Assembly (NCBI RefSeq): GCF_013393385.1
Contig: NZ_AP023239.1
Span: 2,728,001-2,792,000 of the forward strand
Direction of reading: 5' to 3'
Origin: Paenibacillus sp. URB8-2
Lineage (GTDB): Bacteria > Bacillota > Bacilli > Paenibacillales > Paenibacillaceae
Length of the DNA: 64,000 nucleotides
Below, in pieces: positions 4,641-64,000 of this stretch (position 1 is the first letter of the stretch; each line of letters starts with the position of its first letter). A program made the position numbers and the translations under genes. The notes under the pieces are model-generated. The model searched no databases. It worked only from the letters and a program-made list of their open reading frames with translations, and was not told the DNA's origin.

Positions 4641-4699
4641 CTTCAAAATATCCGCCGTACAAGCGCTAGGTCTGTACGGCTTCGATTAAGTAAGCTCCA

Positions 4700-4793
4700 G
4701 GTTCCACTTCCCTACGCTGGTATGATCCAGATCAGGTTCCAAGGGTCCGAAGCTCGCGGCTCCGTCTCAGTCGGATGACGCCCCTAGTGAAAT
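4700..4793 (-). promoter_or_regulatory. TPP riboswitch aptamer (THI element)
   Basis: The minus strand carries the conserved THI-box pieces in order: ACTAGGGG, CTGAGA, GGACCCTTGGAACCTGATC, then GGATCATACCAGCGTAGGG. P1 can close between TTTCACT and AGTGGAA. It controls the thiZXYMDE operon. Confidence 0.97.
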
Positions 4794-4825
4794 TGCGGTC
4801 TTTTATTCGGTTTTCATTGTTTTTA

Positions 4826-8445: not shown

Positions 8446-8643
8446 GCTATGATCTCCTTTTCCTGTAGATATTTCAATATTTTAGCATACGGATATGTTA
8501 ATAGTCTTGTAATTATGTAAAATGATAGCGATCCTGGTAGTCGTTATTAAACACACTTGGCCCGTAACCTAGGTCCTCCATACAGGAACTCTAAGCTACA
8601 GGCCAAAAAATTTAACAGTTTCTATCATCCATCTCCATACGGG

Positions 8644-9306
8644 TTATCTATTCCCGTGGGCTTTCAGATATTCCAGTGCATTATACAGCATCACAGCTGC
8701 TTCAGCCCGTGTCAGCTTGCTCTCCGGATTGAACTTTCCGTCCTTGTCCAGGGCGGTGATTTTGTATACAAGGGACCGCTGGATGCCGCCCTGGTAAGAA
8801 GGGTCAATCTGATCCTCATCGGCGATCTTCGTCGGAGCAAGCTTGATAAGCGGCAGATTGCCGGCTTTCTCGAGGCCTTGAACGAGCAGGGCGGTGAACA
8901 GCTGTTTGGTCATCGGTTCCTTGGGATCAAGATCCGCCGGGACGTTGACACCGTTATAGTGCGCATTAATAAAAGCTTCGGCATACCATGCGTCATCGTT
9001 GACCTTGGTAAAAATATCGCTTGCCACGGGAGCCTTGATGAAATCAATAGCTGCCAGACTGAGCTGCAGGCCTCCCGATATAAGCTGGACGCCCTGAGCA
9101 GCGCTCAAGACGGAACCGGGCATGAACTGCGATCCGTTTACTCCTTTAACGAGCCCGCGGTCTTTCAGGCTTTCGATCTTCTCCTTGCCCTGGACGGAAC
9201 CGAGATCGGTGAATCCGCTGCCTGCGGCAAAGCCCGCGCCTCCTGCCGACAGCATCATTAATGCGCTGATTGAAAAGGCTGCCAACGCTTTCTTTGTCGA
9301 TATCAT
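8644..9306 (-). CDS. Secreted SLH-domain protein
   Basis: A 220-residue protein from the ATG at 9306, which is placed 8 bases after GGAGG; an upstream extension is not needed. A signal peptide (ISTKKALAAFSISALMMLSA) is followed by an S-layer-homology repeat (FTDLGSVQGKEKIESLKDRG, with VNGSQFMPGS) and a second one near the C-terminus (LDKDGKFNPESKLTRAEAA). SLH domains bind pyruvylated secondary wall polymer, so it is probably attached to the cell wall. The central part has no catalytic signature that I recognise. Confidence 0.85.
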   Translation of the reverse strand: MISTKKALAAFSISALMMLSAGGAGFAAGSGFTDLGSVQGKEKIESLKDRGLVKGVNGSQFMPGSVLSAAQGVQLISGGLQLSLAAIDFIKAPVASDIFTKVNDDAWYAEAFINAHYNGVNVPADLDPKEPMTKQLFTALLVQGLEKAGNLPLIKLAPTKIADEDQIDPSYQGGIQRSLVYKITALDKDGKFNPESKLTRAEAAVMLYNALEYLKAHGNR

Positions 9307-9404
9307 ATTGCTGCACCTCCTGCTGAGTACGGCATTGGAAGCCGTCATATTCCCTAAACGGAGGACAGGCCGGAAAGGTTGCGGGAGGCAGCCCGGAATG
9401 GTTA

Positions 9405-9977
9405 TTAATTCAACTCCCGGAACAAAAGATTACGGTAAGGATAGGGAGAGCTTTTGTATTTGAACAGCAAAGCGATCCCCGACTCTTCAATCTTCACTGA
9501 CCGCAGCCCGGGGCTGTGAACAAGCCCCCGTACCATAGCCGCGACCGCCTTGCAGTCATCCCGGCGGATGCCGCGGGCCAGAGCGGCGGCGAAATTCCGG
9601 TTAATGGCCAGCTCGCGGTACAGCGGCAGAACGGCGCGGGCAATCCGGCGGTGAACCTCCGTACTGAACGTAAACTGCACCAATCCCGGCGGGATGGTAG
9701 TGCCGTTCGTATACACCAGGGTGGGAAGCGGAAAATCAAAGTCTACAAAATACCCGATCGCGTTCGTGCCATATCCCTGCCGGGCGGCCTGAGGAGCCGC
9801 AAGCTTCAACAGCTTGCCCATAAGATCAAGGTCGGCGCCGACGACCGCGCGCGTCCAGGCGCTCGCATAGCTGCGGCCTCCGGCAATTGCCCGGTAGAAC
9901 GGCAGCATGCCCTTCGCCACTTTGACCAGTACATCTGCCGTAACGGCCGCGTCTTTCTTTTTCGTTGTTTTAAGCAT
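9405..9977 (-). CDS. Hypothetical protein with an internal duplication
   Basis: A 190-residue basic protein without signal peptide or membrane segment. ATG at 9977 is preceded by AGGAGG. Two segments resemble each other: VAKGMLPFYRAIAGGRSYAS near residue 19 and IARAVLPLYRELAINRNFAA near residue 118, each followed by a hydrophobic helix. The family is not one I can name; similar short proteins occur in Paenibacillus as far as I recall. It lies downstream of nothing obvious and upstream of the SLH gene on the same strand. Confidence 0.7.
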   Translation of the reverse strand: MLKTTKKKDAAVTADVLVKVAKGMLPFYRAIAGGRSYASAWTRAVVGADLDLMGKLLKLAAPQAARQGYGTNAIGYFVDFDFPLPTLVYTNGTTIPPGLVQFTFSTEVHRRIARAVLPLYRELAINRNFAAALARGIRRDDCKAVAAMVRGLVHSPGLRSVKIEESGIALLFKYKSSPYPYRNLLFRELN

Positions 9978-10052
9978 CCGTTAGTCCTCCTTTGCCGATA
10001 ACTGTCTGCTATAAGGTATGGACTTCAGGCATACATCCGTATGGGCTATTGA

Positions 10053-10922
10053 TTAAACAAGCGGAATATATATCTTGATTCTCATGTCTTCTGGAAAGGT
10101 GGATTTCCGCACATCCGTTACTTCATAATCAGGCCCTTCCCGGCGATCATAATTGGACTCTGGCAGCCATACGCCGTAAATGAAATCCCGTTTTTTCTGA
10201 ATATGCTCCGCGGGACCGTAGGCTTTGAATTGAGCGTATTTCCCTTCCGGCAGTTCGAATTTGACGTATTGGCTGTCCGGCACCTCCGCGAATTCTCCGG
10301 CTTCTTCCCCTACGATAAAAGAGAATCCACCATCGTCCTGAAAGCGGCACGAAACACCATAGGCCATATCGGGCGCCAGTCTGTGCGGGATATGCTGATA
10401 GCGGCCGTTTCTTCCGAATTCATCGTAAAAGCCGGGAATGTCCCGGTAATGCCGGCCTTCATCTAAATGTGTCTTATACTCACAGCCAATGATCCGTGTG
10501 CGGTTCAATTGCACAATTGCCGGTTTGCCCATCTCGAATTCTTCAATTCCCTTTGTCTGATAATCCAGAAAGCTGATTGGAGGCTGTCCGGTGAGTACTG
10601 CATTCTCCTTACGGAATTTCCCGGGCGTCATCCCTGCATAGCTCTCAAACGCGCGCGTAAAAGCCTCCTGCGAATGATACTGAAAAGCCACGGCAATCGG
10701 GAGAATGCCTTCATCCGAATCCAATAGAAGTTTGGACGCTTCGGTAAGCCTTCGTTTGCGGATATACTCTTGCACGGTAAAACCCGAAATGGCGAGAAAA
10801 AGACGCTGAAAATGAAACGGGGAGAAGGAAGCTGAAGATGCGATTTCCTGAATGCCAATCTCCTGCTGCAAATGACGTTCGATATAATCCACGGCTTTCT
10901 GAATTTGCAAATAGTATTGCAT
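10053..10922 (-). CDS. AraC-family regulator with GyrI-like effector-binding domain
   Basis: A 289-residue protein. Residues 1-105 hold two helix-turn-helix motifs of the AraC type (IQEIASSASFSPFHFQRLF and AVAFQYHSQEAFTRAFESYA) followed by GMTPGKFRK. Residues about 125-289 are a GyrI/BmrR-like small-molecule-binding domain ending in MRIKIYIPLV. This N-HTH/C-effector layout is that of Rob/SoxS-like multidrug-sensing regulators. It is transcribed divergently from the Fur-family gene; its target genes are not evident from the neighbourhood. Confidence 0.92.
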   Translation of the reverse strand: MQYYLQIQKAVDYIERHLQQEIGIQEIASSASFSPFHFQRLFLAISGFTVQEYIRKRRLTEASKLLLDSDEGILPIAVAFQYHSQEAFTRAFESYAGMTPGKFRKENAVLTGQPPISFLDYQTKGIEEFEMGKPAIVQLNRTRIIGCEYKTHLDEGRHYRDIPGFYDEFGRNGRYQHIPHRLAPDMAYGVSCRFQDDGGFSFIVGEEAGEFAEVPDSQYVKFELPEGKYAQFKAYGPAEHIQKKRDFIYGVWLPESNYDRREGPDYEVTDVRKSTFPEDMRIKIYIPLV

Positions 10923-22273: not shown

Positions 22274-24022
22274 TTATTTTTTCCAGCCGTCCTTCAAGGG
22301 CACGATTCGGTTGAATACTAGTTTGCCATCTGCCGGCCTGCTGACAGAATCTAAAATAAAGTAACCGTTTCGGATGAACTGGAATCTGCTGCCCGGCTTT
22401 GCCTGCCGCACCCCAGGCTCAATCAGAGCATTCTCTACAACTTGTAATGAATCTGGATTCAAACATGCCTCCCAGCCATCCTCGGATGCTCCAATTTCTG
22501 CGTCAGGAAGCAGCAACGAATCGTAAAGACGGAGCTCGCACTTTTCAACATGTCGGGCGGATACCCAATGGATAGTTCCCTTAACCTTGCGTTCTGTGAA
22601 GCCGCTACCGCTTTTCGTCTTGGGATCATAGGTACAGCGAATCTCGGTGATGGTACCGTCAATTTCCCTGATAATCTCCACACAGCGGATGAAGTAGGCC
22701 CCCTTAAGCCGCACCTCAGCGCCCGGCGACAGCCTGTGAAAGCCTTTGACCGGGGACTCCATGAAGTCTTCTCGCTCGATGAACAGTTCTCGAGAGAATG
22801 GTACCTTTCGCTTGCCCATTTTTTCATTTGCCGGATTGTTTTCGATTGTCAGCACTTCCTCATCATCTTCCGGAAAGTTGACGATAACAACCTTTAGTGG
22901 ATCGATGACCGTCATGACTGCTGGAACGCTCTCCTTCAGATCCTGCCGAAGCTTGTGCTCCAGTAGGGAGAGGTCTACTATGGTTTGTTGCCGCGCCAGT
23001 CCAATACTGCTGATAAAACTGCGGATACTCTCCGGTGTGAAGCCACGTCGGCGCATTCCGGAAATCGTCGGTAGTCGGGGATCATCCCAGCCATCTACCA
23101 ACCCTGCACCTACTAGTTGGCGCAGATAACGTTTGCTGGTTACTGCTCCGGCGATGTTAACCCGCCCGAATTCCCATTGCCGTGGAGGCTCCGAAATCTC
23201 CAATTCATTTAAAACCCATTCGTATAGTGGACGATGGTCCTTGAATTCAATGGAGCACAGAGAATGAGTAATACCTTCAATGGCATCCTGGATTGGATGG
23301 GCAAAATCATACATCGGAAATATACACCAGGCATCTCCCGTACGGTAGTGCGGTGTGTGAATAATTCGATACAGTACCGGATCGCGCAAATTGATATTCG
23401 GAGAAGCCATATCGATTTTTGCTCTCAAGACGCGAGAGGCGTCAGGATACTTACCATTTCGCATCTCGGCGAATAACCGCAGATTCTCCTCCGGTGTCCG
23501 ATTTCGAAAGGGGCTATCTGTGCCGGGCTCGGTCAGGGTTCCCCGGCTCGCTGCCAATTCAGCAGATGAAAGGTCGCAAACGTATGCCCTCCCTCGCTCA
23601 ATTAACCTGATGGCCGCATCAAAGATCTGTTCCGAATAATCCGAACCATAATAGACATGCCCTTTAGGGCTGTAGCCCAGCCACTCAATATCCTTCAGAA
23701 TGGACTCTACATACGCGATGTCCTCCTTCAGCGGATTGGTATCGTCGAATCTAAGATGGAATACACCACCGAATGCATGGGCGGCAGTGTAGCTCGTGTG
23801 AATCGCATAAGCACTGCCGATATGCAGATAGCCGTTAGGCTCCGGCGGAAACCGAGTGCAAATTGGACGGGTAAACCGTCCGCTTTGGAGATCTTCGCGG
23901 ATTAGAACTTCCAGGTAACTTCCAGCTGCGGAAGAGTCGGCTAGGGTATCGCCCTCTTCAGATTGTTTGCCGTCAATCGTCGAACTGTCCGAGGGGTACG
24001 GCGTTGGGGTATTTTCTTTCAT
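22274..24022 (-). CDS. glnS: Glutaminyl-tRNA synthetase
   Basis: A 582-residue class I synthetase. TRFPPEPNGYLHIGSAYAIH contains the HIGH motif, GVFHLRFDDTNP the tRNA/ATP site, and GAVTSKRYL the KMSKS equivalent. The C-terminal anticodon-binding beta-barrels are present (FIRCVEIIREIDGTITEIRC). The start MKENTPTP at 24022 follows GGAGG; an upstream reading frame runs into the T-box leader and is rejected. The N-terminus carries a 35-residue low-complexity extension. It charges tRNA-Gln directly; most Firmicutes instead use GluRS plus GatCAB, so this is probably an acquired gene. Confidence 0.95.
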   Translation of the reverse strand: MKENTPTPYPSDSSTIDGKQSEEGDTLADSSAAGSYLEVLIREDLQSGRFTRPICTRFPPEPNGYLHIGSAYAIHTSYTAAHAFGGVFHLRFDDTNPLKEDIAYVESILKDIEWLGYSPKGHVYYGSDYSEQIFDAAIRLIERGRAYVCDLSSAELAASRGTLTEPGTDSPFRNRTPEENLRLFAEMRNGKYPDASRVLRAKIDMASPNINLRDPVLYRIIHTPHYRTGDAWCIFPMYDFAHPIQDAIEGITHSLCSIEFKDHRPLYEWVLNELEISEPPRQWEFGRVNIAGAVTSKRYLRQLVGAGLVDGWDDPRLPTISGMRRRGFTPESIRSFISSIGLARQQTIVDLSLLEHKLRQDLKESVPAVMTVIDPLKVVIVNFPEDDEEVLTIENNPANEKMGKRKVPFSRELFIEREDFMESPVKGFHRLSPGAEVRLKGAYFIRCVEIIREIDGTITEIRCTYDPKTKSGSGFTERKVKGTIHWVSARHVEKCELRLYDSLLLPDAEIGASEDGWEACLNPDSLQVVENALIEPGVRQAKPGSRFQFIRNGYFILDSVSRPADGKLVFNRIVPLKDGWKK

Positions 24023-24074
24023 TGTATTTTTTCCTCCCTTATTGATGGCATTCAGCATGCCTATTGGCCACATG

Positions 24075-24367
24075 CAACAAAAAAAGAACTTCACCTCCAA
24101 GACGTTTAGTCTTGGGGACGAAATTCTTCGTGGTGCCACCCCGGGTTTGCCGATATGTCGCCATACCGGCCTCATTGGGTACGGCGCTGCTCGACTGGCA
24201 GACAACGGTTATACCCTAGCTCTGTATCGGGAGCTCCCGTCCCGCCATCCCTCTGGCTATTTGCCCAGTTCCGGCGGGCCGCTCGAAGGCTTGATTCAAC
24301 GTCGCTATCTTTACCCATTCTCAGCACCCGGGCTCTCTGTTCAAAGATAATCAACGTCTACTCTTCT
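24075..24367 (-). promoter_or_regulatory. T-box leader of glnS
   Basis: The minus strand starts AGTAGACGTTGATTATC with GGTGCTGAGAATGGG (stem I), and ends with the T-box core GGGTGGCACCACG at about 24130-24145. A terminator hairpin CCAAGAC/GTCTTGG with GTTCTTTTTTT lies before the gene. In the presumed specifier loop, GAATCAAGC places CAA (Gln) at 24291-24293. Uncharged tRNA-Gln should promote antitermination of glnS. Confidence 0.88.
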
Positions 24368-24589
24368 CGTCATCGCGTTGTATATTGGCCTTATCTTAGC
24401 AAAATTATTTTTCGACAGCAAGGGCATAGGCGATATCAGAACTTTAATGTTCGCAATCCTTGGATGCTCTTCTGAGTAAGAAAAAAAGTCATTTTTATTT
24501 TCGTAAATTAGAAGTACAATAGTTTTCCTCATCAAGTGATCCATGACTAAAAACTCTAATAAGATTCAAATATGAATGGAGTGTAATTC

Positions 24590-25247: not shown

Positions 25248-25441
25248 ATTCTTGGGTAATCCCTTCAACTGAGTGGAATTCATATCGATTTTTTCTCACG
25301 AAAAATCGTATACCAAGCGATCCCTGCGGTTCCCGCAGTTTTCCATCCAACAGCGAAGGTGGGGGTTAGACACGTCTGCTTAACAAACATATGTTCTTGT
25401 GTTATGCTAGATCCATCAAACTTGCGATGGAGGTGTATCTC

Positions 25442-26794
25442 ATGAAGGTGGTCAAAACACTCAAATATACGATTACGTCTCACCACCGCATGCTAGATGC
25501 GACTCTCCTTGCGTATCAAGAGGCGTTATCGTTCTTGATTACGGTCATTCAAGAGCAGTTTATGGCCTTGGAACCGTTATCCGCCCAAGCGGTTGTGACG
25601 GCGGTAGAAAGGCTGACTCACCGTACCAGGCATAATCCGAATCCGCTCTACACCGAGTTTGATCAACGCTTCTATAAGTTTCCTTCGTACTTCCGCAGAA
25701 GTGCCATTGCAGAAGCATTTGGCATGGTGAAAAGTCATCATTCCCGTTTTCAGCTTTGGCAAGCCGAGCGGCAACACGCCCAGCAAGAGGGGAAACGCTT
25801 TTCGAAGAAACCGCCGACACTCCAAGCTCAGCATCAGGCATTCCCTTGCTTGTACAAAGGCAATATGTTCATTCGAACCTCCGATAGGGCAGCCAACATT
25901 AAGATATTTCATCAAGGCGATTGGGTCTGGCTCCCCATTACCTTTAAAGGCCAAGACCTATTCAAACGTAACGTGTGGAGCATGAAAGAATGCAGCCCCA
26001 CATTAGTCCGAAAAGGAAAACGCTATGCCCTTCATATCGCCTATGAAGGGGATGTGAAGTTGACTCAGGCGGAAATTTCCAAGCAGCGGGTGTGTGCCGT
26101 TGATTTAGGCTTAACGAATTCCGCAGTCTGTTCCGTGATGGACGTAAGCGGCACTGTCTTGGCGAGGACATTTATCAACCAAGCCAAAGAAAAAGATCGA
26201 TTGCGCCAAATCACAGGCAAACTGAAACAAGCCCAGCGACAATCCGGTATAGGGGCAAAACCGAATTTCTGGCGGCGGATGAACGGCTTACAGACGCATA
26301 TCGTCCACGATACCGCGCATCGAATCATCGCCTTTGCCCAAAAGCACAGCGCAGATGTCATTGTCATGGAGTATTTAGGCAAGATGCGTCTGCCTAAAGG
26401 AACGTGGGGAGCCAAGCGACTTCGTGCCAAACTCCAGTTTTGGGCGAAACGGCGCATCCAAACAAAAGTGACCGAAATGGCGCATTTCTTGGGAATGCGG
26501 GTTTCCATGGTCAACCCTGCGAATACAAGCGCGCTTGCTTTTGATGGCAGTGGATTTGTAAAACGAAACCCGAAGCGTGATGTTGCTGTATTCGCAACAG
26601 GCAAAACGTATCACGCGGACCTTAATGCCTCGTATAACATCGGCGCACGATACGTGTTGCGCAGTATACACAAAGCCACATCTGAAAAGATGTGGTTGTC
26701 CTTGGAGGCCAAAGACCCTTCATTGGCAAAACGAACGTATTGGACGTTGGCTTCCCTCATTCGGGTGCAACAGGCGTTGAGCCTTCAATCATGA
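25442..26794 (+). CDS. tnpB: TnpB-family RNA-guided endonuclease without zinc-finger cysteines
   Basis: A 450-residue TnpB. ATG at 25442 follows GGAGGTG. The RuvC catalytic set is Asp221 (CAVDLGLTNSAV), Glu310 (VIVMEYLGKM) and Asp393 (HADLNASYNIGAR). Between Glu310 and Asp393, where typical TnpB has two CxxC pairs, this protein reads NTSALAFDGSGFVKR and VAVFATGKTY with no cysteine. That is a known divergent subgroup as far as I recall, and the intact RuvC triad suggests activity. TnpB uses a right-end-derived omega RNA to cut donor sites and keep the element. Confidence 0.93.
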   Translation: MKVVKTLKYTITSHHRMLDATLLAYQEALSFLITVIQEQFMALEPLSAQAVVTAVERLTHRTRHNPNPLYTEFDQRFYKFPSYFRRSAIAEAFGMVKSHHSRFQLWQAERQHAQQEGKRFSKKPPTLQAQHQAFPCLYKGNMFIRTSDRAANIKIFHQGDWVWLPITFKGQDLFKRNVWSMKECSPTLVRKGKRYALHIAYEGDVKLTQAEISKQRVCAVDLGLTNSAVCSVMDVSGTVLARTFINQAKEKDRLRQITGKLKQAQRQSGIGAKPNFWRRMNGLQTHIVHDTAHRIIAFAQKHSADVIVMEYLGKMRLPKGTWGAKRLRAKLQFWAKRRIQTKVTEMAHFLGMRVSMVNPANTSALAFDGSGFVKRNPKRDVAVFATGKTYHADLNASYNIGARYVLRSIHKATSEKMWLSLEAKDPSLAKRTYWTLASLIRVQQALSLQS

Positions 26795-28837: not shown

Positions 28838-29198
28838 TTAGGGGTGGGGGATGGTTTACACCTTTTTTATGTTTGTCGTTGTCAGATATGACCGTAGGCG
28901 CATCCATCGACCGACTATGAGTAAATTTTAAAGTGATACGACAACTGTGATTTATGGTACAATATGGATTAAACTAACTGGCAGGATAGTGAAATAACAG
29001 GAATCAAGCGAAGAGCATGGCGGAGCTTCGCAAGGCTTCAGCCTAAACGGGACGGCGCAGGTTGTAGTTAAATTACGATTGTGATAAACTGTACGTAATT
29101 TTGATGACGGGAGTTGAACGAATACATGTAGAACTTTCTTGCTGTGAGATCACGAAAAGAACGGACTCAGCTATTGGCTGTGGTTGGTTTATTTCGTC
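28838..29198. other. Intergenic stretch upstream of the ABC-F leader
   Basis: No gene supported. It contains a G-rich patch (GGGGGTTAGGGGTGGGGGAT), a -10-like TACAAT near 28957 and the start of the ABC-F leader transcript. Candidate short leader frames start at ATG 29104 and GTG 29144, without a clear ribosome site. Confidence 0.4.
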
Positions 29199-29199
29199 T

Positions 29200-29328
29200 C
29201 TGCAAGAAAGGTCTGCATTTCGTTTGCGCTCCCTATCCGGACAGTCATCCGGCCCCTTGGAATGGGGCCGGATTTCCTCGTATGGATCAGAGCCGCAAGA
29301 AAGCACCTTTCTTGCGGCTCTTTTTATT
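29200..29328 (+). promoter_or_regulatory. Transcription attenuator of the ABC-F gene
   Basis: A strong terminator (AGCCGCAAGAAAG at 29291-29303 with CTTTCTTGCGGCT at 29307-29319, then CTTTTTATTT) lies just before the start codon. GCAAGAAAGG at 29202-29211 repeats the 5' arm and can pair with CCTTTCTTGC at 29306-29315 as an antiterminator. A further GC-rich hairpin occupies 29247-29273. This is the layout of ribosome-stalling-induced antibiotic-resistance leaders. Confidence 0.75.
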
Positions 29329-29350
29329 TCCATATGAAAGGATGATCGCC

Positions 29351-30838
29351 ATGCCCGCGATACAGGTATCCAATCTTACTTTTGCCTATCCAGGTAGCTA
29401 TGACCTTATATTCGAAAATGTTCATTTTCAAATCGATACAGACTGGAAGCTAGGGTTTACAGGGCGAAACGGTCGGGGGAAAACGACGTTCTTTAACCTG
29501 CTGCAGGGGAAATACGAATACAGCGGCACGATCTCCGCACCGGTCGCTTTTGATTATTTTCCGTTTCCCGTCGAACATCCGGAATATTTGACCGTCGACG
29601 TCATCGAAGAGATCGTCCCAGGCTATGAGCGCTGGAAGTTGATGCGCGAACTGAACCTGCTTAAGGTTTCGGAAGACGTGTTGTACCGGCCATTCGAATC
29701 GTTGTCCCAAGGCGAGCAGACGAAGGTACTGCTGGCCGTGCTGTTCATCCAGGACAATCGATTTCTGCTCATCGATGAACCGACCAATCATCTCGATTTT
29801 CACGCACGAAAGCTTGTTGGCGATTATCTGAATACGAAACGCGGTTTTATTCTTGTTTCACACGATCGGGCATTTCTCGACCGCTGCGTCGATCACATTC
29901 TATCGATCAACAAAATGAATATCGAAATCCAAAAAGGCAGCTTCTCAAGCTGGTGGACGAACAAAACTCGCCAGGACAAGTTCGAATTGGCACAAAACGA
30001 AAAGTTGTACAAAGACGTACAGCGTTTATCGACTTCTGTCAAACGCACGAGCGGCTGGTCTCACGAGATCGAAAAATCGAAAAACGGTACACGAAACTCC
30101 GGCTCCAAGCTGGACAAGGGATACGTCGGTCACAAAGCAGCAAAAATGATGAAACGCGCGAAATCCATCGAGCAGCGGCAAACCGCCGCTGTAGAGGAGA
30201 AGTCGAAACTGCTCCGAAATATCGAACAGTCAGAAAGCCTTGTGATCTCTCAGCTCGCATATCCCAAATCCGAACTGGTCGTGCTGGATCACGTCACGAT
30301 TTACTACGGGGTAAGACCGGTTTGCGAGAACGTTCGTTTGACGATCGAACAAGGGGATCGGATCGCAATTTCAGGTCCAAACGGTTCGGGCAAGTCTAGC
30401 TTGCTCCGCCTGCTCAACGGCGAGGCGCTTCACTATACAGGCACGTTTCGGCCGGAGCCGCAGCTTCGCGTTTCCTATGTATCCCAGAGTACCTCTCATC
30501 TGCGAGGATCACTTTCCGATTATGCAGTAGAGCACGGAATCGACGAAAGCTTATTTAAGACCCTGTTGCGTAAGCTTGATTTCGCCCGCATCCAGTTTGA
30601 GAAGGATATGTCGGCGTTTAGCGGCGGGCAGAAGAAGAAGGTTCTGATCGCGAGAAGCCTATGCGAAGAGGCTCATCTGCATATTTGGGACGAACCGCTC
30701 AACTTTGTCGACGTGATTTCCCGGATGCAGATTGAAGAGCTGCTGCTTGAGTACGCGCCGACCATTGTGTTCGTGGAGCATGATCGGGAATTTCACGACC
30801 GTGTCGCCACGAAAACGATTGAACTCGGTGGGGGTTAG
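29351..30838 (+). CDS. Lsa-type ABC-F ribosomal protection protein
   Basis: A 495-residue soluble protein with two ABC domains and no membrane part. Domain 1: GRNGRGKTT (38-46), signature LSQGEQTKV, Walker B FLLIDEPTNHLD. The inter-domain linker (GWSHEIEKSKNGTRNSGSK, VGHKAAKMMKRAKS) matches the Lsa/Vga antibiotic-resistance group. Domain 2: GPNGSGKSS, FSGGQKKKV, WDEPLNFVD. Such proteins displace lincosamides, pleuromutilins and streptogramin A from the ribosome. ATG at 29351 has AAAGGAT 7 bases upstream. The attenuator leader suggests drug-induced expression. Confidence 0.9.
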   Translation: MPAIQVSNLTFAYPGSYDLIFENVHFQIDTDWKLGFTGRNGRGKTTFFNLLQGKYEYSGTISAPVAFDYFPFPVEHPEYLTVDVIEEIVPGYERWKLMRELNLLKVSEDVLYRPFESLSQGEQTKVLLAVLFIQDNRFLLIDEPTNHLDFHARKLVGDYLNTKRGFILVSHDRAFLDRCVDHILSINKMNIEIQKGSFSSWWTNKTRQDKFELAQNEKLYKDVQRLSTSVKRTSGWSHEIEKSKNGTRNSGSKLDKGYVGHKAAKMMKRAKSIEQRQTAAVEEKSKLLRNIEQSESLVISQLAYPKSELVVLDHVTIYYGVRPVCENVRLTIEQGDRIAISGPNGSGKSSLLRLLNGEALHYTGTFRPEPQLRVSYVSQSTSHLRGSLSDYAVEHGIDESLFKTLLRKLDFARIQFEKDMSAFSGGQKKKVLIARSLCEEAHLHIWDEPLNFVDVISRMQIEELLLEYAPTIVFVEHDREFHDRVATKTIELGGG

Positions 30839-54993: not shown

Positions 54994-56206
54994 CTAGTAC
55001 CTTGACCTATTTTTATTCTAGTTTTATGCTCTTTCTATAAGAAAAATATGGGAGGGCAAGCAAATGAACAAAAAATACGAGGTTCGGCTTGAGCCGAAAG
55101 AACGTGAAAGAATTGAACAACTTCTTCATGCCGAAACGACATCTCCCGGCATTCGCCGCCGCTGTCTCGTGCTGCTTCTTTCGGATGAAAATCAAGGTGC
55201 TATTCCCAAGCAGACTGAAATTGCCAGTCGTTCAGGAGTCAGTAATGCAACCGTTTTTACACCGTTAGAGACTACTGTACCCACGGACTGGAGCAAACGC
55301 TCTGTTACCGCCGCCGTGCTGAACCGGCACGCCCTTCACCGATCACCGGTGAGGTGGAAGCCCGAATTATTGCATTAGCCTGCTCTGAGCCTCCAAAAGG
55401 GTATGCGCGCTGGACGATTCGTTTGCTAACGCGCCGAGTCATTGAGCTGAATATTTTAGAATCGGTCGGACGAGAAACCATTCGGACGACTTTAAAAACG
55501 AAACTTAAGCCTCACCTGAAAAACAATGGTGCATTCCCGCCAAATCGAGCAGTGAATTCGTCGCTCGGATGGAAGACGTCTTAGAGACCTATGCCCTGCC
55601 TTATGACCCTGAAATCCCGCTCATTTGTATGGATGAACAGCCGATCCAGCTGCTCGATCATTCGCGCCCACCGCAACCTATGAAGCCAGGACAGGTTCTG
55701 CGAGAAGACTACGAGTATGTTCGCAAAGGCAGCTGCAGCCTGTTTCTGTTCACGGAGCCGCTCGCCGGGTGGCGTCACGTGCAGGCTTCGGAAAGACGCA
55801 CAAAATCCGATTGGGCTCTGCAGATCCAAGAACTGCTGGAGGTCCACTACCCAGAGGCGAAACGGGTTCGGCTCGTGATGGATAACTTGAATACCCATAC
55901 GATCTCGTCCTTGTATGAAACCTTTCCGCCTGAACAGGCGTTGGCTTTGGCAAAACGGCTAGAGATCCATTATACCCCTAAGCATGGAAGTTGGTTAAAC
56001 ATTGCTGAGATAGAACTCAGTGTAATGACGATCCAATGCCTGAACCGCCGAATCACCTCTATTGAAGAATTGCAGGGCGAGGTGTCCGCTTGGGAAACCG
56101 AACGCAACCGAATTCAGAAATCTGTCGATTGGCAATTTACCACGGAGCAGGCACGAGGCAAGTTAAAGCATTTGTATCCTGAAATTTGATCTGGTCAAGG
56201 CACTAG
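54994..56206 (+). mobile_element. IS630-family insertion sequence (degenerate)
   Basis: About 1.2 kb. Terminal inverted repeats CTAGTACCTTGACC (54994-55007) and GGTCAAGGCACTAG (56193-56206) match at 13 of 14 positions and contain TA, the IS630 target dinucleotide. The transposase is disrupted by two frameshifts, so the element is inactive unless helped in trans. It sits directly upstream of the HerA/OLD genes. Confidence 0.8.
55064..56189 (+). pseudogene. IS630-family transposase, two frameshifts
   Basis: Three frames together give a full IS630 transposase. N-terminal helix-turn-helix (LEPKERERIEQLLHAETTSP; IASRSGVSNATVF) runs to about 55257, where a one-base shift is needed. GEVEARIIALACSEPPKGYA and the second HTH continue to about 55520, where a base appears lost from an A-run. 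The DDE domain follows: ICMDEQPIQLL, VRLVMDNLNTH and YTPKHGSWLNIAEIELSVM, containing the D, D and E. Confidence 0.88.
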
Positions 56207-56242
56207 GGATAGAATATTGAGTAACGAGGGAGTGCAAGTCAT

Positions 56243-58057
56243 ATGGATATTTTAATGAAGGATCATCCATTTGGACAAATTGTTTCGATTACTGGCATGA
56301 GCGTGACCATAGAAATTTATCAAGATATCTTAGCAAATAACTTGGAACAAGAAAAAGTATTAGAAGCAGGAAAAAATATCAAGCTCAATGTAGGAACTGT
56401 TGGAGATATTTTTCTAGTTGGTGGGCCTTCAACTCATAATATAATGCATTTTGGTATTTTCGAGGAAATCAAGCTGGTTTCATCATTTGAACAAGATCCA
56501 TATGGGCTCCATAGAAGCACTGAACCAAAAAATAAGGCTATTGCAGTTGCAAAAGTAATTGGTTATCAAGATTTAAAAGTAAAGAACGAACTAAAGTTTA
56601 TGCGCGGAGCGGGGCATTATCCAAAATTTAATGCGAAATGTCATTTATTATCTCCCGAGGAGAAGAAACAGCTTTTTGCCTTAAATGAAGGCGCTGGGAT
56701 AACAATTGGAAAAGCATCTGGTGTTCAGGAAGAGGATATTTCCATTCATATAGACAAGTTTCTTGGAAAACATTCTGTGATTTTGGGTTCAACAGGATCA
56801 GGGAAATCATGTACTGTGGCCAGTATCATGCAAAATGTCCTGAAAAGTCATCCTTACAGCCATGTTGTATTTTTTGATCCGCATGATGAGTATGATAATG
56901 CTTTTCCAAATAAAAGGGGCAGCTATAAAGTAAATAAGATTGATTCTGTAGATCTTCACACTCCGTATTGGCTATTAAATTTTGATGAATTTCAGTCTGT
57001 TTTTCTTGGTGAAGTGGACCTTTACAAGAATAGCAACGGTATCCGTATTCTGAAAGAAACCATAGTATCGTTAAAAGAACGTGAACAAGAGAAAATAAAA
57101 GCAACTGTTGGGGAGATTGCCAAGGTAAATATTAACGCTCCGCTCTATTTCTCATTTGCAGATGAATTATTACCTACTTTAATTAGATTAAATAAAAGGA
57201 CAATCTGGAGTTCTGATAACGAACCTGCTATCGACTTAAGTACAGGTGATTTTTTGCCCAGTTCTGGCAATACCAACATTCCTAGAGACGGTAAGATGGA
57301 CAAAGTTCATCAAGATAAAAATTATTATGGAGAACTCGACCAAGTAATTGAAAAACTACAAAGTATATATTCAGATCGACGATACCAATTTTTGTTTCCT
57401 AATAACTTTGATGTCTCGACTTCATTCTATAGATTTATGGAAAGTTTATTGTCCGTTCCATCTGGTGGCAAAACAACTCAACTGACTATATTTGATTTAT
57501 CTACACTGCCTTCAGAAGTTATGCCAATCATCATCGGGGTCATATCTCGTATATGCTTTGAGTATAAATTATGGGATCCTAGCCCAAAAAAACTACCACT
57601 ATATCTTGTTTTTGAAGAAGCTCATAATTACATACCTAAAGAGTCGAATTCTATAACACGACTGCCTAAAAAGTATTTAGGTAGAATTGCAAAAGAAGGG
57701 CGTAAGTACGGAATTAACCAGCTAATCATTAGTCAAAGACCATCCGATCTATGTGAAACGATTGTATCCCAGTGTTCCAATTTTTTTGTTCTTCGGGTGA
57801 CTAATCCCAATGATCAAGCTTTTATAAATCAAGTGCTTCCAGATCATTTAAATACATTATCGAGCATGATTCCCTTTTTTCAAAATGGAGAGTGCTTGGT
57901 TGCGGGAGAATGTGTCACTATACCTACTAAGGTTATTATCACTCCACCTTCTCCTGAACCAAACTCGAGTGATGTTGGATTTAGTTCGATCTGGAAGAGA
58001 AGGCTTAATAATTATAATGTGAGAGACACAATTCATCGTTGGTGGGATGTCGAATAA
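56243..58057 (+). CDS. HerA/FtsK-type P-loop ATPase (DUF87), candidate defence translocase
   Basis: A 604-residue protein. A HAS-barrel-like N-terminus (GQIVSITGMSVTIEIYQ) precedes the HerA ATPase: Walker A GSTGSGKS (182-189), VVFFDPHDEYDNAF, Walker B PLYLVFEEAHNYIPKES and GRIAKEGRKYGINQLIISQR with sensor/arginine residues. HerA rings pump DNA and usually team with nucleases (NurA) or defence effectors (SIR2, DUF4297). Here the next gene overlaps as TAATG and encodes an AAA+TOPRIM nuclease. AT-rich composition compared with the 34-54 kb region suggests horizontal transfer. Confidence 0.92.
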   Translation: MDILMKDHPFGQIVSITGMSVTIEIYQDILANNLEQEKVLEAGKNIKLNVGTVGDIFLVGGPSTHNIMHFGIFEEIKLVSSFEQDPYGLHRSTEPKNKAIAVAKVIGYQDLKVKNELKFMRGAGHYPKFNAKCHLLSPEEKKQLFALNEGAGITIGKASGVQEEDISIHIDKFLGKHSVILGSTGSGKSCTVASIMQNVLKSHPYSHVVFFDPHDEYDNAFPNKRGSYKVNKIDSVDLHTPYWLLNFDEFQSVFLGEVDLYKNSNGIRILKETIVSLKEREQEKIKATVGEIAKVNINAPLYFSFADELLPTLIRLNKRTIWSSDNEPAIDLSTGDFLPSSGNTNIPRDGKMDKVHQDKNYYGELDQVIEKLQSIYSDRRYQFLFPNNFDVSTSFYRFMESLLSVPSGGKTTQLTIFDLSTLPSEVMPIIIGVISRICFEYKLWDPSPKKLPLYLVFEEAHNYIPKESNSITRLPKKYLGRIAKEGRKYGINQLIISQRPSDLCETIVSQCSNFFVLRVTNPNDQAFINQVLPDHLNTLSSMIPFFQNGECLVAGECVTIPTKVIITPPSPEPNSSDVGFSSIWKRRLNNYNVRDTIHRWWDVE

Positions 58058-59988
58058 TGTCGTATTTTATAAAGCAAATTTCCATTGAGCATTATAGAGG
58101 AGTAAAGAATAAACAAGTCCTTTTGCTATCAAAAAGAAACCATGCAACATTTATTGTCGGACCGAATAACTCTGGAAAATCGTTATTGGCTAGGCTCGTT
58201 CGGATATTTCAATACAATTTGGATGGACAAGTCAAAAATACGATGAAGTTTGCCGCGGAGAAGATAACAGATAACGATTTTTACAACTTAGATACGAGCA
58301 ACCCCATTGTCATGGATTTTACTATTGATAATTCTAATCTCGTACATTATCAAGATCCGAATTTAAATAAATTGGTGAAGTTTGATGAAACGGAGATGGT
58401 CATTCAAATTCATAAATGCGGCAAGCAATATTTAGGGAATATCTGTATAGGTATAGATGGAGTCCGTTCACATATAGCTACAAATAAAAACCAATCTCTT
58501 GAAATAGCATTTAATACGGAGTTTTTAAATAGCGTTGGAATTAACGACGAAGAAGTTGTGAAGATATGCAATGCTTTATATAGCATATTTCAAGGAAGTA
58601 TACTGGTATTCGACCCAATTCGAGCTTTTGACCGTGCAGGTGAAGACAGTATAACCGTAAGTGGGTACGAGCTTGTGAATTGGTTGAATGAAACGGAGCA
58701 CCTTTCTGAGAAAAGAACCGCAAAAGATAAAGTGAAGCAGTATATTGAAAAGCAACTTCATCTGGATTCACCTGTTGCGGTCTCATCAAATGTTAATCAG
58801 AAAGAACTGAGGTTCACCTTTAGCGGTAATATGGAGTTGTCGTCGAGAGAAGTCGGAACAGGGTATACGATGTTGTATATTTTGTTAATGGAACTTGTTC
58901 GTAATAAAAAAATGTTAATAATTATAGACGAAATTGAAAGTCATCTGCAGCCAGGCATTGTTAGAGAAGTAATGAAAGTTATAAAACAAATTGGAAGCGC
59001 TCAGTTTATTATTTCTACCCACTCACCTATTGCAATAGAGACAGCGACAGAAGAAGATTATTTATATCGTTCTCAAAAAATTGAAGGAGCATGTTCATTT
59101 AGTGGTTTTTTCAAACATGTCGGGTCAGATCCTTCGGGTTCTAGAATTTCTAGAGAGATTTGCAATGAATTAGGTGTGCTCCCGGGCGATGTTTTATTGA
59201 GTAATAGTGTTATCTGGGTTGAGGGCCCATCTGAAGTTTTTTGGCTTCGAACCTGGATCAAAACCTATTGTGAATATCTAATTAGTCAAGGCAAGCTGAA
59301 CACTTATTTATTGGAGGGGCTGCATTACTCACTACTTATGACAGGCGGTAGTACAATCTCCCATTATTCTTTCGAGGAAGCTGTAATTTCGCTTGATGAT
59401 ATTGAAGAAGATACGTTATTAAAAGTGCTTAAAGTAAACCCAAATCCTTTCGTAGTAATCGATTCTGATCGTACAACCAAGGACTCTCAAAAATACAAGC
59501 GATTCATAAGGATTGCAAAAGAATTAAACAGACAGAATCGGACGCATTACCTATTAAATGACTGTGTTATTGATAATGAAGATAATATCGAAAGTCAAAC
59601 TGATCAAATTCCAAATCTTTGGATTTTGTCCGGAAGAGAACTAGAAAACTATACTCATCCTGAACTCCTAAAAAAATTCTATTCTCAAAGGGAGCAGCAT
59701 CCTTCATCCCAAATTAGCGGATCTTTGTCAGTATCTGATTGGGATGTATTTTCCTCCTCCGAAGGGGCGGGTCGCATATTAGAAAGCAGAGGGCTTACTG
59801 GAGTGGCTGCAAAAAGCGGTACTATTAAGCACAAAGATGAACTTGCTAGGTACATATATAACAACTTTGAAGTTAAGCATTTATTAAAGCAAAGCATTAT
59901 TCCACAGCCCAATGCTGCAATGATTGATGATCTTATTAAAGGTTTGGATAAAATCATTGCGTATATAAAAAAGGTTAATTACTTGTGA
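58057..59988 (+). CDS. OLD-family AAA ATPase + TOPRIM nuclease
   Basis: A 643-residue protein. The N-terminal SMC/Rad50-like ATPase has Walker A GPNNSGKS (35-42), signature LSSREVGTGYTML, Walker B MLIIIDEIESHLQPG and H-loop FIISTHSPIAIE. The C-terminal TOPRIM domain has Glu in VIWVEGPSEVFWL (about residue 390) and DxD in VVIDSDRTTKD (about 469). That architecture is shared by OLD nucleases and GajA of Gabija. ATG overlaps the HerA stop, so the two are almost certainly translated together. No UvrD-like gajB follows, so it is not standard Gabija. Confidence 0.92.
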   Translation: MSYFIKQISIEHYRGVKNKQVLLLSKRNHATFIVGPNNSGKSLLARLVRIFQYNLDGQVKNTMKFAAEKITDNDFYNLDTSNPIVMDFTIDNSNLVHYQDPNLNKLVKFDETEMVIQIHKCGKQYLGNICIGIDGVRSHIATNKNQSLEIAFNTEFLNSVGINDEEVVKICNALYSIFQGSILVFDPIRAFDRAGEDSITVSGYELVNWLNETEHLSEKRTAKDKVKQYIEKQLHLDSPVAVSSNVNQKELRFTFSGNMELSSREVGTGYTMLYILLMELVRNKKMLIIIDEIESHLQPGIVREVMKVIKQIGSAQFIISTHSPIAIETATEEDYLYRSQKIEGACSFSGFFKHVGSDPSGSRISREICNELGVLPGDVLLSNSVIWVEGPSEVFWLRTWIKTYCEYLISQGKLNTYLLEGLHYSLLMTGGSTISHYSFEEAVISLDDIEEDTLLKVLKVNPNPFVVIDSDRTTKDSQKYKRFIRIAKELNRQNRTHYLLNDCVIDNEDNIESQTDQIPNLWILSGRELENYTHPELLKKFYSQREQHPSSQISGSLSVSDWDVFSSSEGAGRILESRGLTGVAAKSGTIKHKDELARYIYNNFEVKHLLKQSIIPQPNAAMIDDLIKGLDKIIAYIKKVNYL

Positions 59989-60309
59989 AACCTCTAAATC
60001 TTGTCCCCCCTTCCTACTGTATTAAGATAGCCGATTAAGATGAGGGGATACTCGGCTACACAATGTTAGAAATAAATCAAACGAGGCAAAATAATTGTAG
60101 GATCGAGCGCTACTTATCTTAGTAAATGAAGTTCCCACTTGGTTAGCGTTTCTCATACACTGGGACAACACAGCAAATGTGCTACCATTTCGTACCCACA
60201 AAACTTAAGAATAACCTTGTACAGATGAAGGTATTTCTTCACATTAGTCAAAATCACTATAGATAAACGTGGAAACTGCACAAATATCTATAACGAGGAG
60301 GTCGTATTT
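59989..60309. other. Intergenic region inside the defence island
   Basis: No gene. A hairpin TAGCCGA/TCGGCTA lies near 60032-60060 without a T-run. The 320-base gap suggests a separate promoter for the next gene; none is convincing by eye. Confidence 0.5.
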
Positions 60310-63300
60310 TTGAGCGCTAAAGATAACATCATTTCAACAATACAACAAATGATTCATTTAGAACCAATGATTTTATTTTTGGGTGACGGTTTTGATATGC
60401 GTCGGCATGCTGATCTATATGGAATCAGTTGGAGTTGCGTTTTCACAACTCAAATGGACACGCAAATTACTAATTTATTCTCAAGCGATACTCGAAAAGT
60501 GAAACCAGTCTATTCTGCTTGGGACTTAGAGGATCTTCCTTGGAGCAAGACGCAAATGCCGCTCGTTTGGCTCTTTGGCGATTCAGAATATAACGTGGAG
60601 CGCCGAGCTTCTGAAATAGAAACGGAAGCCGAGAACATGTTTAACGTCATCAAAAGCAGACTCAAAGAGTTTGGTCGGATGGTTTGTGTCGGATTTAACC
60701 CAGACCATGAGGTCATTGATGCCAAAAGCGCTAAATAATTTAGCCTATAGCGTCAAGCGGAAGCCTCTGATTTATTTCTTAGAAGCCAATGAAATTATTA
60801 CGGAAAATCGGCGCTGCAAAGAGGCGATTGAAGACGGTTACGCAGTTACTTCTATGGAATCAATCACGGATCTTTATTGGCAACTAGACGAAGATTTGTT
60901 CGATACAATTGATTTTTTAGGAGACGATGATTTTTCAACACAAAATTCCAATCGAGACAAGCGACTCTTCATTAACGGGACACCATATTCATTGAGTTCC
61001 GCTTCAGAAAAAGAAACCCTATTTTACGTCAGCCGGTTTGCCACATTGCTGGATTATGACACGGTGAATACGAGTGTTGTGTTTCCACGTGAGCTCCGTA
61101 CAAACTACTTTAAAACTTTTTTAAAGAATAGTGCGGAAGGAGAACCACTATGGTATGGTTTCCACGAAGAGCAAAACTTCCATATTAACCGTTATTTCGA
61201 GAATGATCTATATATAGAAACGAATGCTATCTTGAAAGACGCCAATACAAGAGACCGCAAAGCCAAGCCCATTATGTTGTGCGGCCAAGCCTGTAGTGGC
61301 AAATCGAATGCTTTAGCCGCGCTTGCTGTTCGCATTTTTAGCGATAAAACATATCCTGTCATTTATATTAAAGATCCTGGCATCAGCTTTTCTTACGATT
61401 ACTCTGATGAAATTGGCTGGCAAGCGAATAGTCTATTCGGCCATCTGGAAGACTTAATCAAAATACTTGAAGAAAAAACAGATTCCGCGGTACCTGTTCT
61501 GATCATATGGGATTTGGCAGCATATTCGCCGGAGTCTCGCAAGAAAGCGATTAAGCTATTGAATGCTTTAAGGAGCTTAGGTAGAAAAGTTCAAATCGTT
61601 TGCTCTTCTTATGAGTTCATTAATCAGCATGATGACGAGTATTTTAAAGTCATCAATGTAGACGTCAAGCTACGAGAAGGAGAACTGGATAAAGTTAAAG
61701 ACTGTCTACATAAAAATGGTGGTTACAGTAGGACTGATGTCGATCTGTTGATCGACCGCTACGGCGGGAACGAAAACTTCCTTGCTTCCATGTACATCAT
61801 TGACGAAATCCGTTCCACGCTCAGCCAAAAGATTACGCAGGAAGTCGACAAAGGGACAAGTCAACTTGTTGATCATGTCATTGATATATCCGAGCAGCAT
61901 CACATAGACTTCTTTGAAAATACGTTTGCTAATGCACTCAAGAAGGCCTATGATGATGCGGGTAAAAAGTTCGTATGGTTCGTCTCAGAATACGATGGGA
62001 CAGAAGAAGCGAGCCGCAAGGAGTTAGATGAGAAGTTCCGAATGATCATCACTTCTGTTGCCATTTGCACTTGGTACGGCCAAAAGGTGCCCTATGTTTT
62101 TGCCCTCCGTATGATGGGGGGATTCGGCACAGGTAACCAAGCGTTGCGAGGTGCCATTTCTTCAGCGACGTTTCTTGCCTTCGAAAAAAATGAAGATGAC
62201 AGTTGGGATAGTACGGTCAGCATTCGAACCGAATTGGAATCGAGGTTATTATTAGAGGGATTTGGGATAAGTCCATTCCAAAGAGACGGAAAGATCAAAA
62301 TCCTAAACTATATCATTACCATTTTGTTAAAGCATGTTAATTGTCGGAATAGAGATGAATATGAGCTAATTCGCAATGTTATTCAATTGGTTGGTCCTAA
62401 TAATCATACATTCAAGCAGAAGAAACTATGGGATGAAGCTTATAATTCATTCGATGAACTAATTGGTGCACTTAATGATTATAGAGAAAAGGAGAAGGAC
62501 AATAGTCTAGTTTTGCAAGAAATTACACTTCGGAGAGAATATTGTTTAATGCCTAAGTGTCCGCTAACTGACAAAGAGAAGTTGGACGCTTATAAGGAAG
62601 CACTCGAAATTGCCGAGAAGCAAATTCGGGAGCGGGAACAAATCATCTCTCATTCCGGAAATAATCATCGAAAAATGGATTTGACTCTTGCACAATTAAA
62701 AATAGAGAAGGCGAATCTGAACAATCGGATTTTCCAGCTGCCCAAAATGGACGAAGCTTATCGAGGCATGTTGTTCGACGATGTTTACGATTCGCTGCAA
62801 GACGTTTTGGTTGCTTATCCAACAAACGGCTATGCGTATTCGCCAATCCTCAATGCAGGATTAAATCAACTAAGGCATGCAAAAAAAGAAGAATTACAAT
62901 ATATTTCACATACGTTGCGGCAAATGTACTCGGTGCTTGACTTTTTTCAAGCTTCTGAAGACAGTTTCACCATTGAAAGTCGAGATGAATTAAACAGACT
63001 TCGAGGTGAAATCGGTATGAGAATGGACGAATTATTAGATAGCGATGACTACTTCATTAAGTCCGTTGAACGTAAAGAACCGACAGGGATTTACTTAAAA
63101 GCCTGCAATATTATCAGGGAACTGGAAAAGAAAGTGCAAGGTAAGTTCAATTATAATGAACCTTTGTTTAAAAAGAGCCATATAAATACATGTGAAAAAA
63201 TTATTCAGCTTTTCAATCATTATGCAGAAATCTCTCACCATGATCCCGCCAGCTTATTTATGCTCATTAATATAAAATGGTTATATCATAATCGATTCCC

Positions 63301-63811
63301 ACTATTTGGAGAAAAAGAATGTCAGCCAACGCGCTTGAACCAAACAGAGTGGAAAGAGCTACTTTATTTGTGTGAACATTATTTTCAATGCAGTCGATTC
63401 ATTAGGGACCGAATCCGTTACTTGGCGGCGCTTTGCAGCGCACAACTTGGGGACTATTATTCTACACAAGAATACCTAAAACCCTTCAGAGATTCGAGAG
63501 AGTATGAGAAGCGAGCGTTACATTTAATTTGCGATAAGAATGGGGTTCCGCAAACTTTTACCGCTAAGTTTAAATACGATTATGACACAGCCAATCGTCG
63601 AGGATACATGGTCATTTACGATAATGCAGATAAAAAGCAGCACCGACCGCTTCTGGATCGTGTCATATACCGACTTGAAAATATTCACCACCGTGACGAG
63701 GTTCGACGAGGCGGTATCATTGAAAATGTACAACTCTCCCTCTCCTATACTGGTTTTCAGGCACATCGTCGACGCAAAAATTATAAAGAATTGGAGAGGG
63801 GTGATGCATGA
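60310..63811 (+). CDS. SIR2-like/STAND P-loop NTPase, split by one frameshift
   Basis: Two frames make one protein of about 1,166 residues. Residues 1-140 resemble a degenerate SIR2 domain: FLGDGFD in place of the GAGxS loop, LVWLFGD where SIR2 has LHG (catalytic His lost), and VCVGFNPDHEV like the GxSxSDPD motif. The reading then shifts +1 in GATGCCAAAAGCG near 60725-60733, and the following frame carries Walker A CGQACSGKSNAL, Walker B VPVLIIWDLAAYSP and a long helical C-terminus, a STAND-like layout. Start is TTG at 60310 behind GAGGAGG. A single extra A in the A-run would explain the shift. Confidence 0.8.
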
Positions 63812-64000
63812 TGAAAGACAGCATTCTCTTTTCTCATGCACAGATAGACAGAATGAATGCGCTGGCGAAAAGTATACATCCCAACCTACTTGTTTCATAT
63901 TATTACAACCCAAAATTGTTTTGTGAACATAGCAGTGATAAAGAACGTTTTTGGACTGCATTGACCAACTTATATAGCTTGTTTTTTGATTGCAGCCCTT
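63808..64000 (+). CDS. Unknown partner gene, cut by window end
   Basis: At least 64 residues (SILFSHAQIDRMNALAKSIH; ERFWTALTNLYSLFFDCSP) open to the window end. The ATG at 63808 overlaps the STAND gene's TGA, with GGAGAGGGG upstream, so it is probably co-translated with it. No family recognised from the visible part. Confidence 0.75.
   Translation, partial: MMKDSILFSHAQIDRMNALAKSIHPNLLVSYYYNPKLFCEHSSDKERFWTALTNLYSLFFDCSP

Follow-up and report, generated by a model that had tools for sequence, protein, structure and literature searches.

At the downstream end of the window analysed here, a stretch of 64,000 bases from the single-contig 5.58 Mb genome of Paenibacillus sp. URB8-2 (bases 2,728,001-2,792,000), a gene for a HerA-type hexameric ATPase is followed directly by one for an OLD-type protein, i.e., an ABC ATPase joined to a TOPRIM nuclease (hereafter OLD-I), and the two probably constitute an immune module. 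The closest named relatives at the locus were Paenibacillus. An initial annotation had regarded this end of the window as a candidate defence island in which the HerA and OLD genes were coupled and a SIR2-like/STAND protein followed in a second coupled unit. The features recognised there are as follows.

55064..56189, + strand: relic of an IS630-type transposase in two open reading frames (ORFs; 55064-55378 and 55569-56189), with DDE_3 in the second; it flanks the island
56243..58057, + strand: HerA-type hexameric ATPase, 604 amino acids (aa), from Pfam, a PADLOC profile and motifs
58057..59988, + strand: predicted OLD-type ABC ATPase and TOPRIM nuclease (OLD-I), 643 aa, from Pfam and conserved residues
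60310..60738, + strand: SIR2-like/STAND gene, 5' piece (SIR2-like N-terminal domain), ended by a frameshift
60671..63811, + strand: SIR2-like/STAND gene, 3' piece (nSTAND NTPase and helical repeats), an open frame of 1046 aa
63808..64000, + strand: partner gene of the SIR2-like/STAND gene, start only, with an R-x4-H motif (HEPN-like); the ORF extends to L009:6407

The HerA and OLD-I genes and their products

The TAA of herA and the ATG of the OLD-I gene share a single base (TAATG at 58057), exactly the overlap described in the initial annotation, and both genes are intact. The same annotation had described the stretch as AT-rich and flanked by IS630, which was borne out by the G+C content of the two genes (36% for each, vs 50% for window positions 1-55000) and by a DDE_3 match at 1.1e-27 in Pfam for the 206-aa ORF of the transposase relic. 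The end of this relic, about 207 bases at 56000-56207, had four further copies in the genome at 97-100% identity.

The HerA protein matched Pfam DUF87 (1.3e-28) and, over nearly its full length (residues 6-601), the PADLOC HerA profile PDLC04105 (432 bits), and it fell below the cut-offs of the two NCBIfam equivalogs for anti-phage HerA, NF042944 and NF042943 (317 bits vs 850 and 174 vs 800). In the PDB, its best matches were four distinct sequences (215-249 bits) that carry the names HerA, helicase HerA domain protein or ATP-binding protein, and 4d2i (HERA) reached 94 bits. The residues of what we take to be its Walker A (GSTGSGKS), FEEAH and SQR motor motifs were kept in all six aligned sequences. 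By sequence, then, the window HerA groups with those from systems of the SIR2 and DUF4297 types. The best other chromosomal HerA from the Paenibacillaceae was 33% identical and aligned from residue 118 onward, and for the next 13 chromosomal HerAs in rank the alignment began anywhere between residues 54 and 166, so that the N-terminal domain appears to be the most diverged part of the protein. Plasmid HerAs and the PADLOC profile aligned from residues 6-10. A HerA homologue from P. abyssi (P0127) was named 'Sea9' by a UniRef source.

The ATPase part of OLD-I matched Pfam AAA_21 and AAA_15 above cut-off. Residue conservation was read in a set of 61 full-length homologues (identity of at least 34%) from the best 120 of 238 matches, leaving out P0062 (38% identical, aligned to half of the query) and P0063-P0120 (at most 30% identical). 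The ATPase residues, namely Walker A GPNNSGKS (G35, N38, G40, K41), D291-E292 and H322, were invariant in all 61 proteins, as were E389, D469, E528, E530 and K593 of the TOPRIM part, with D471 present in 60/61 and E393 in 58/61. By order and approximate spacing, rather than by superposed structure, the TOPRIM set parallels E400, E404, D455/D457, E508 and K562 of the Burkholderia OLD protein (BpOLD), the residues that form its two-metal catalytic set (PMC6755086); in GajA, cleavage requires E379, D511 and K541 (PMC8136825). The OLD-I partner thereby keeps, as far as alignment can tell, the catalytic residues of OLD nucleases.

Structural and profile comparisons, which the initial annotation had recommended, gave a divided answer. 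A Foldseek search with an AlphaFold2 model of OLD-I (mean predicted local distance difference test score, pLDDT, 82) returned Gabija GajA as the best seven matches and the T. scotoductus OLD as the eighth, at E 3e-15 to 5e-12 and template modelling (TM) scores of about 0.30, and the OLD-like TOPRIM profile stayed under the Pfam cut-off. A catalogued system identical to the pair was sought with the PADLOC profiles, which matched HerA but not OLD-I: none fitted the latter well, the best being AriA (59 bits, residues 5-325), and the GajA profiles reached up to 57 bits over part of the protein.

Recurrence of the pair and the partners of related HerAs

Seven distinct OLD-I loci were read, i.e., the window, L010, L011, L020, L021, L022 and L023. 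The initial annotation had suggested looking for the same two genes in other genomes, and HerA was found directly upstream of OLD-I in six of the seven loci (the window counted), overlapping it by one base in four and by eight bases in two. The flanking genes varied, with none constant in the loci read. In the seventh locus, L023, OLD-I (8480-10465) stands alone between uvrB and uvrA, genes that were named by eye. Compared with L010 and L011, both window genes had nonsynonymous divergence (dN) of 0.07-0.08 and synonymous divergence (dS) of 0.8-1.0, giving dN/dS of 0.08-0.10; dS was saturated in the comparison with L020. As dN lies far under dS, herA and OLD-I are under purifying selection.

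The pair also held together when whole genomes were surveyed. OLD-I was present in 5/394 Paenibacillaceae genomes, and HerA at E up to 1e-20 in 39/382; a HerA at least 60% identical to that of the window (HerA-I) occurred in only five of the latter, and these were exactly the OLD-I genomes (the draws of 382 and 394 genomes overlap and are not identical). At wider taxonomic scales OLD-I was found in 3/398 genomes of the class, the window genome among them, in 1/398 of the phylum, namely the window genome, and in one of 24 genomes from the family of G905, which was G905 itself. Among the best 120 of 6279 HerA matches in a set of 5.8 billion proteins there were 53 full-length and three partial HerA-I clusters, and for 31 of these 56 the longest contig had exactly the same length as that of an OLD-I cluster (61 clusters in all). 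As the clusters had been merged at 90% identity, 31 is a lower bound. No such match was found for the 64 lower-scoring HerA clusters. A chance pairing of HerA and OLD-I was therefore rejected, given the same five genomes and the 31/56 clusters vs 0/64.

For comparison with other HerA loci, the best-scoring one was taken from 20 of the 34 other HerA-bearing Paenibacillaceae genomes. A DUF4297-type gene lay upstream of HerA in ten of them (the nine that were scanned all matched PADLOC DUF4297, and L071 was called by its likeness to L068) and a SIR2 gene in seven (five were scanned and matched; L062 and L078 have split ORFs that were judged by eye), giving SIR2 or DUF4297 upstream in 17/20 control loci, 14 of them profile-confirmed. 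One plasmid HerA locus, outside the 20 controls, was read and also had SIR2 upstream. The other three control loci, L073-L075, had an OLD gene downstream of HerA, at gaps of 5, -4 and 3 bases. This second type (OLD-II) is 24-27% identical to the window OLD, and the equivalents of E389, D469, D471, E528, E530 and K593 were present in all three aligned sequences. PDLC04105 scored one type II HerA at 437 bits, about equal to the window HerA, and a fourth HerA-OLD-II pair, with a gap of 78 bases, was found in L087 (3250-6870). Genome G904 holds both the solitary OLD-I of L023 and, elsewhere, the full HerA-OLD-II pair of L087, and that HerA might serve both. A protein of about 400 aa encoded downstream of a HerA-OLD pair (L020:5237-6439) resembles by eye a 396-aa ORF near a HerA-DUF4297 pair (L072), and the two may represent one defence gene common to both settings.

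A maximum-likelihood tree of 26 HerAs required three changes of partner class, the minimum, a figure as low as which was seen in 0/200 shuffles. The HerAs of OLD-I, OLD-II and DUF4297 each formed one supported group and those of SIR2 formed two; the deep joins are unsure because long branches were flagged. As judged from this tree, the HerA phylogeny sorts by partner.

The broken SIR2-like/STAND unit and other features of the window

The second coupled unit of the initial annotation was recovered in its layout and lost as a working unit. A SIR2-like/STAND gene does follow the pair, and a partner gene overlaps it by four bases, begins at 63808 and extends past the end of the window. As assembled, however, a frameshift somewhere in 60671-60738 divides the first gene, and an IS630-type element at about L009:6470-7547 separates the partner from what is likely the rest of it; the broken module occupies window positions 60310-64000 and L009:5808-7903. 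That ORFs 60310-60738 and 60671-63811 are one gene was evident from P0122, a single protein of 1164 aa to which they are 67% and 70% identical, and the possibility of two separate genes was rejected given that in four homologues (1115-1164 aa) both parts lie in one chain. These four were the only ones found besides the window's own, i.e., the protein is very rare. The module is intact in L028 and, more distantly, in L029.

The SIR2-like/STAND protein matched PF25199 at 28.7 bits, below the cut-off of 34, and the model of an intact homologue resembles SAMD9/Avs5 in fold, at low confidence (pLDDT 56). The window pieces of the partner had no Pfam match, and its R-x4-H motif was aligned in all three loci; R-x4-6-H is what we take to be the HEPN signature. 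Relative to the Avs5 (SIR2-STAND)/SAMD9 family, the unit differs in its two-gene layout with a HEPN-like partner, its great rarity and its broken state. It would have been a module separate from the HerA-OLD pair, and is now, as assembled, a broken one.

Elsewhere in the window there are a thiamine pyrophosphate (TPP) riboswitch on the - strand (4692-4795), an ORF (22274-24382) that by eye encodes glutaminyl-tRNA synthetase and has a T-box leader (Rfam RF00230) at its 5' end, a 467-aa ORF (25391-26794) that is by eye TnpB-like (IS200/IS605-type), and an ORF (29144-30838) that has a pair of ABC ATPase domains and looks ABC-F-like by eye.

Interpretation, alternatives and relation to known systems

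The adjacency of the two genes, their co-occurrence, the second OLD type, the sorting of the HerA tree by partner and the retained TOPRIM residues together suggest that HerA systems have a third class of partner, an OLD nuclease, beside SIR2 and DUF4297, and that the window's herA and OLD-I genes together make up an immune module. We give this reading a probability of roughly 0.7; the defensive role, the formation of a complex and DNA as its target are the parts that we infer. Several observations weigh against it. The module is rare, at five of 394 genomes of its family, and L023 has OLD-I without an adjacent HerA; the OLD-II loci are silent on the frequency of solitary OLD-II because all were reached via HerA. 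More distant OLD homologues on plasmids, of which five were read among eight matched records, had no HerA alongside in any of the five, so that a general linkage of OLD to HerA was rejected and the pairing belongs to particular clades. The OLD-like_TOPRIM match of OLD-I in Pfam is weak (14.1 bits, E 0.07, below the cut-off of 23.2), the profile matching 30 of the 61 OLD-I members at E up to 0.1; the Foldseek TM-scores are low, and the model is poorly predicted at residues 373-380 and 432-461, inside the TOPRIM part. Due to these low scores and poorly modelled residues, the TOPRIM assignment rests on the motifs and the weak Pfam match. Lastly, the N-terminal domain of the window HerA is not unique to it, as other HerAs, e.g., those of plasmids at 25-28% identity, do align there.

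The mechanism that we propose draws on analogies with better-studied systems. In DUF4297-HerA, a complex of about 1 MDa, the nuclease is stacked on the HerA hexamer and assembly activates both (PMC11291478), the nuclease of GajA is inhibited by nucleotides via its ATPase domain (PMC8136825), and Gabija has been proposed to target linear DNA without RecBCD (PMC12407980). By analogy with this stacking, gating and action on linear DNA, a hexameric HerA ring would assemble on the double-stranded DNA (dsDNA) ends of an invader, or on its replication or packaging intermediates, and pump DNA. Dimers of OLD-I would dock on the ring, perhaps via the N-terminal domain of HerA, which is the first candidate for the partner contact because it is the part most diverged from HerAs with other partners. 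The ABC ATPase heads of OLD-I could then act as a nucleotide- or DNA-gated clamp, with cutting when the gate opens, and the TOPRIM site would nick or degrade the DNA through two-metal catalysis.

Other explanations of the same genes deserve weight to differing degrees. The pair could be an abortive-infection system in which the TOPRIM site of OLD-I cleaves the host's own tRNA or chromosome and HerA is a trigger rather than a DNA pump, a possibility that we consider real, if on the unlikely side. Precedents exist in the TOPRIM nuclease of PARIS, which cleaves tRNA (PMC12409363), in Retron-Eco8, whose OLD effector cleaves dsDNA in abortive infection (PMC12887533), and in DUF4297-HerA, which is itself abortive (PMC11291478). 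Yet the catalytic set of E389, D469/D471, E528/E530 and K593 is that of DNA-cleaving OLDs, and the HerA motor motifs are fully conserved, although host DNA as the target is compatible with both of these observations. Less probable, in our estimate, is an anti-plasmid or anti-conjugation module in which HerA, being related to the pumps of conjugation and packaging, would catch DNA during its transfer and OLD-I would cut it. 'HerA/FtsK capture' of transiting DNA has been proposed for related systems (PMC10853773, PMC12839542), and a search of 72,556 plasmids and 50,697 phages gave no OLD-I match that spanned 80% of the query; against this, absence from plasmids may be mere rarity, and the present evidence does not separate phage from plasmid targets.

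A role in the repair of the cell's own chromosome, in the manner of HerA-NurA with Mre11-Rad50, would have HerA pump at DNA ends and OLD-I, with its Rad50-like head and nuclease, resect them. The rare and patchy distribution of the genes in family, class and phylum, their low G+C content, the lack of constant neighbours in the loci read and the closer resemblance of the window HerA to SIR2- and DUF4297-type HerAs than to 4d2i leave this quite improbable. The solitary OLD-I of L023 is what one would expect of two unconnected genes that just happen to be carried together, and we regard that explanation as very improbable, given the coupled ORFs, the co-occurrence in the same genomes, the presence of HerA beside another OLD type and the clades sorted by partner.

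If the reading of HerA-OLD as an immune module is true, it would suggest HerA to be a general platform on which unrelated effectors have been swapped, and one motor with three partner classes, in clades sorted by partner, would amount to a natural experiment on the part of HerA that chooses its effector. HerA-OLD would also offer an OLD nuclease possibly fed with DNA by a processive pump, which would be useful for tests of OLD gating. A more ambitious version, in our view evenly balanced between right and wrong, is that HerA-OLD is an uncatalogued immune system of at least two anciently diverged types, constituting both a new context class for OLD (with a hexameric pump as partner) and the third partner class for HerA, with the pump feeding a nucleotide-gated TOPRIM site, and that the adjacent broken unit is what is left of another module not yet described, in which a SIR2-STAND sensor resembling SAMD9/Avs5 was partnered by a HEPN-like RNase.

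No HerA-OLD system was found in the literature searched, the coverage of which was incomplete for key classification papers. The contexts described for OLD proteins are alone, with a UvrD-type helicase, in retrons and in PARIS (PMC10568477), and the word HerA is absent by text count from that review in the form available to us; the 'HerA/FtsK capture' systems are described with other partners (PMC10853773, PMC12839542). Identity with Gabija or a retron was rejected, as neither a UvrD/helicase Pfam match among the genes adjacent to OLD-I (HerA, SIR2-like/STAND) nor a reverse transcriptase among those scanned was found. Nevertheless, Gabija, with its class 2 OLD protein GajA and UvrD-like helicase GajB, likewise joins an OLD ATPase-TOPRIM protein to the gene of a DNA-dependent motor; a conserved TOPRIM glutamate, DxD and lysine are common to GajA/BpOLD and the window OLD, and GajA proteins were its top Foldseek matches, at low TM-scores, whereas the motor of Gabija is a superfamily 1 helicase and that of the window a HerA-type pump. 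Type I-B retrons (class 3 OLD) and PARIS (class 4) have an OLD/TOPRIM effector in common with the window pair, and PARIS places ATPase and TOPRIM on separate genes, ariA and ariB, whereas the window OLD fuses both in one chain. DUF4297-HerA and SIR2-HerA (Nezha) resemble the window pair in HerA profile group (PDLC04105), tight two-gene coupling and a conserved HerA motor. They differ in that their partner is upstream of herA and the window partner, an OLD ABC-ATPase/TOPRIM protein, is downstream, and it is in its N-terminal domain that the window HerA departs most from theirs.

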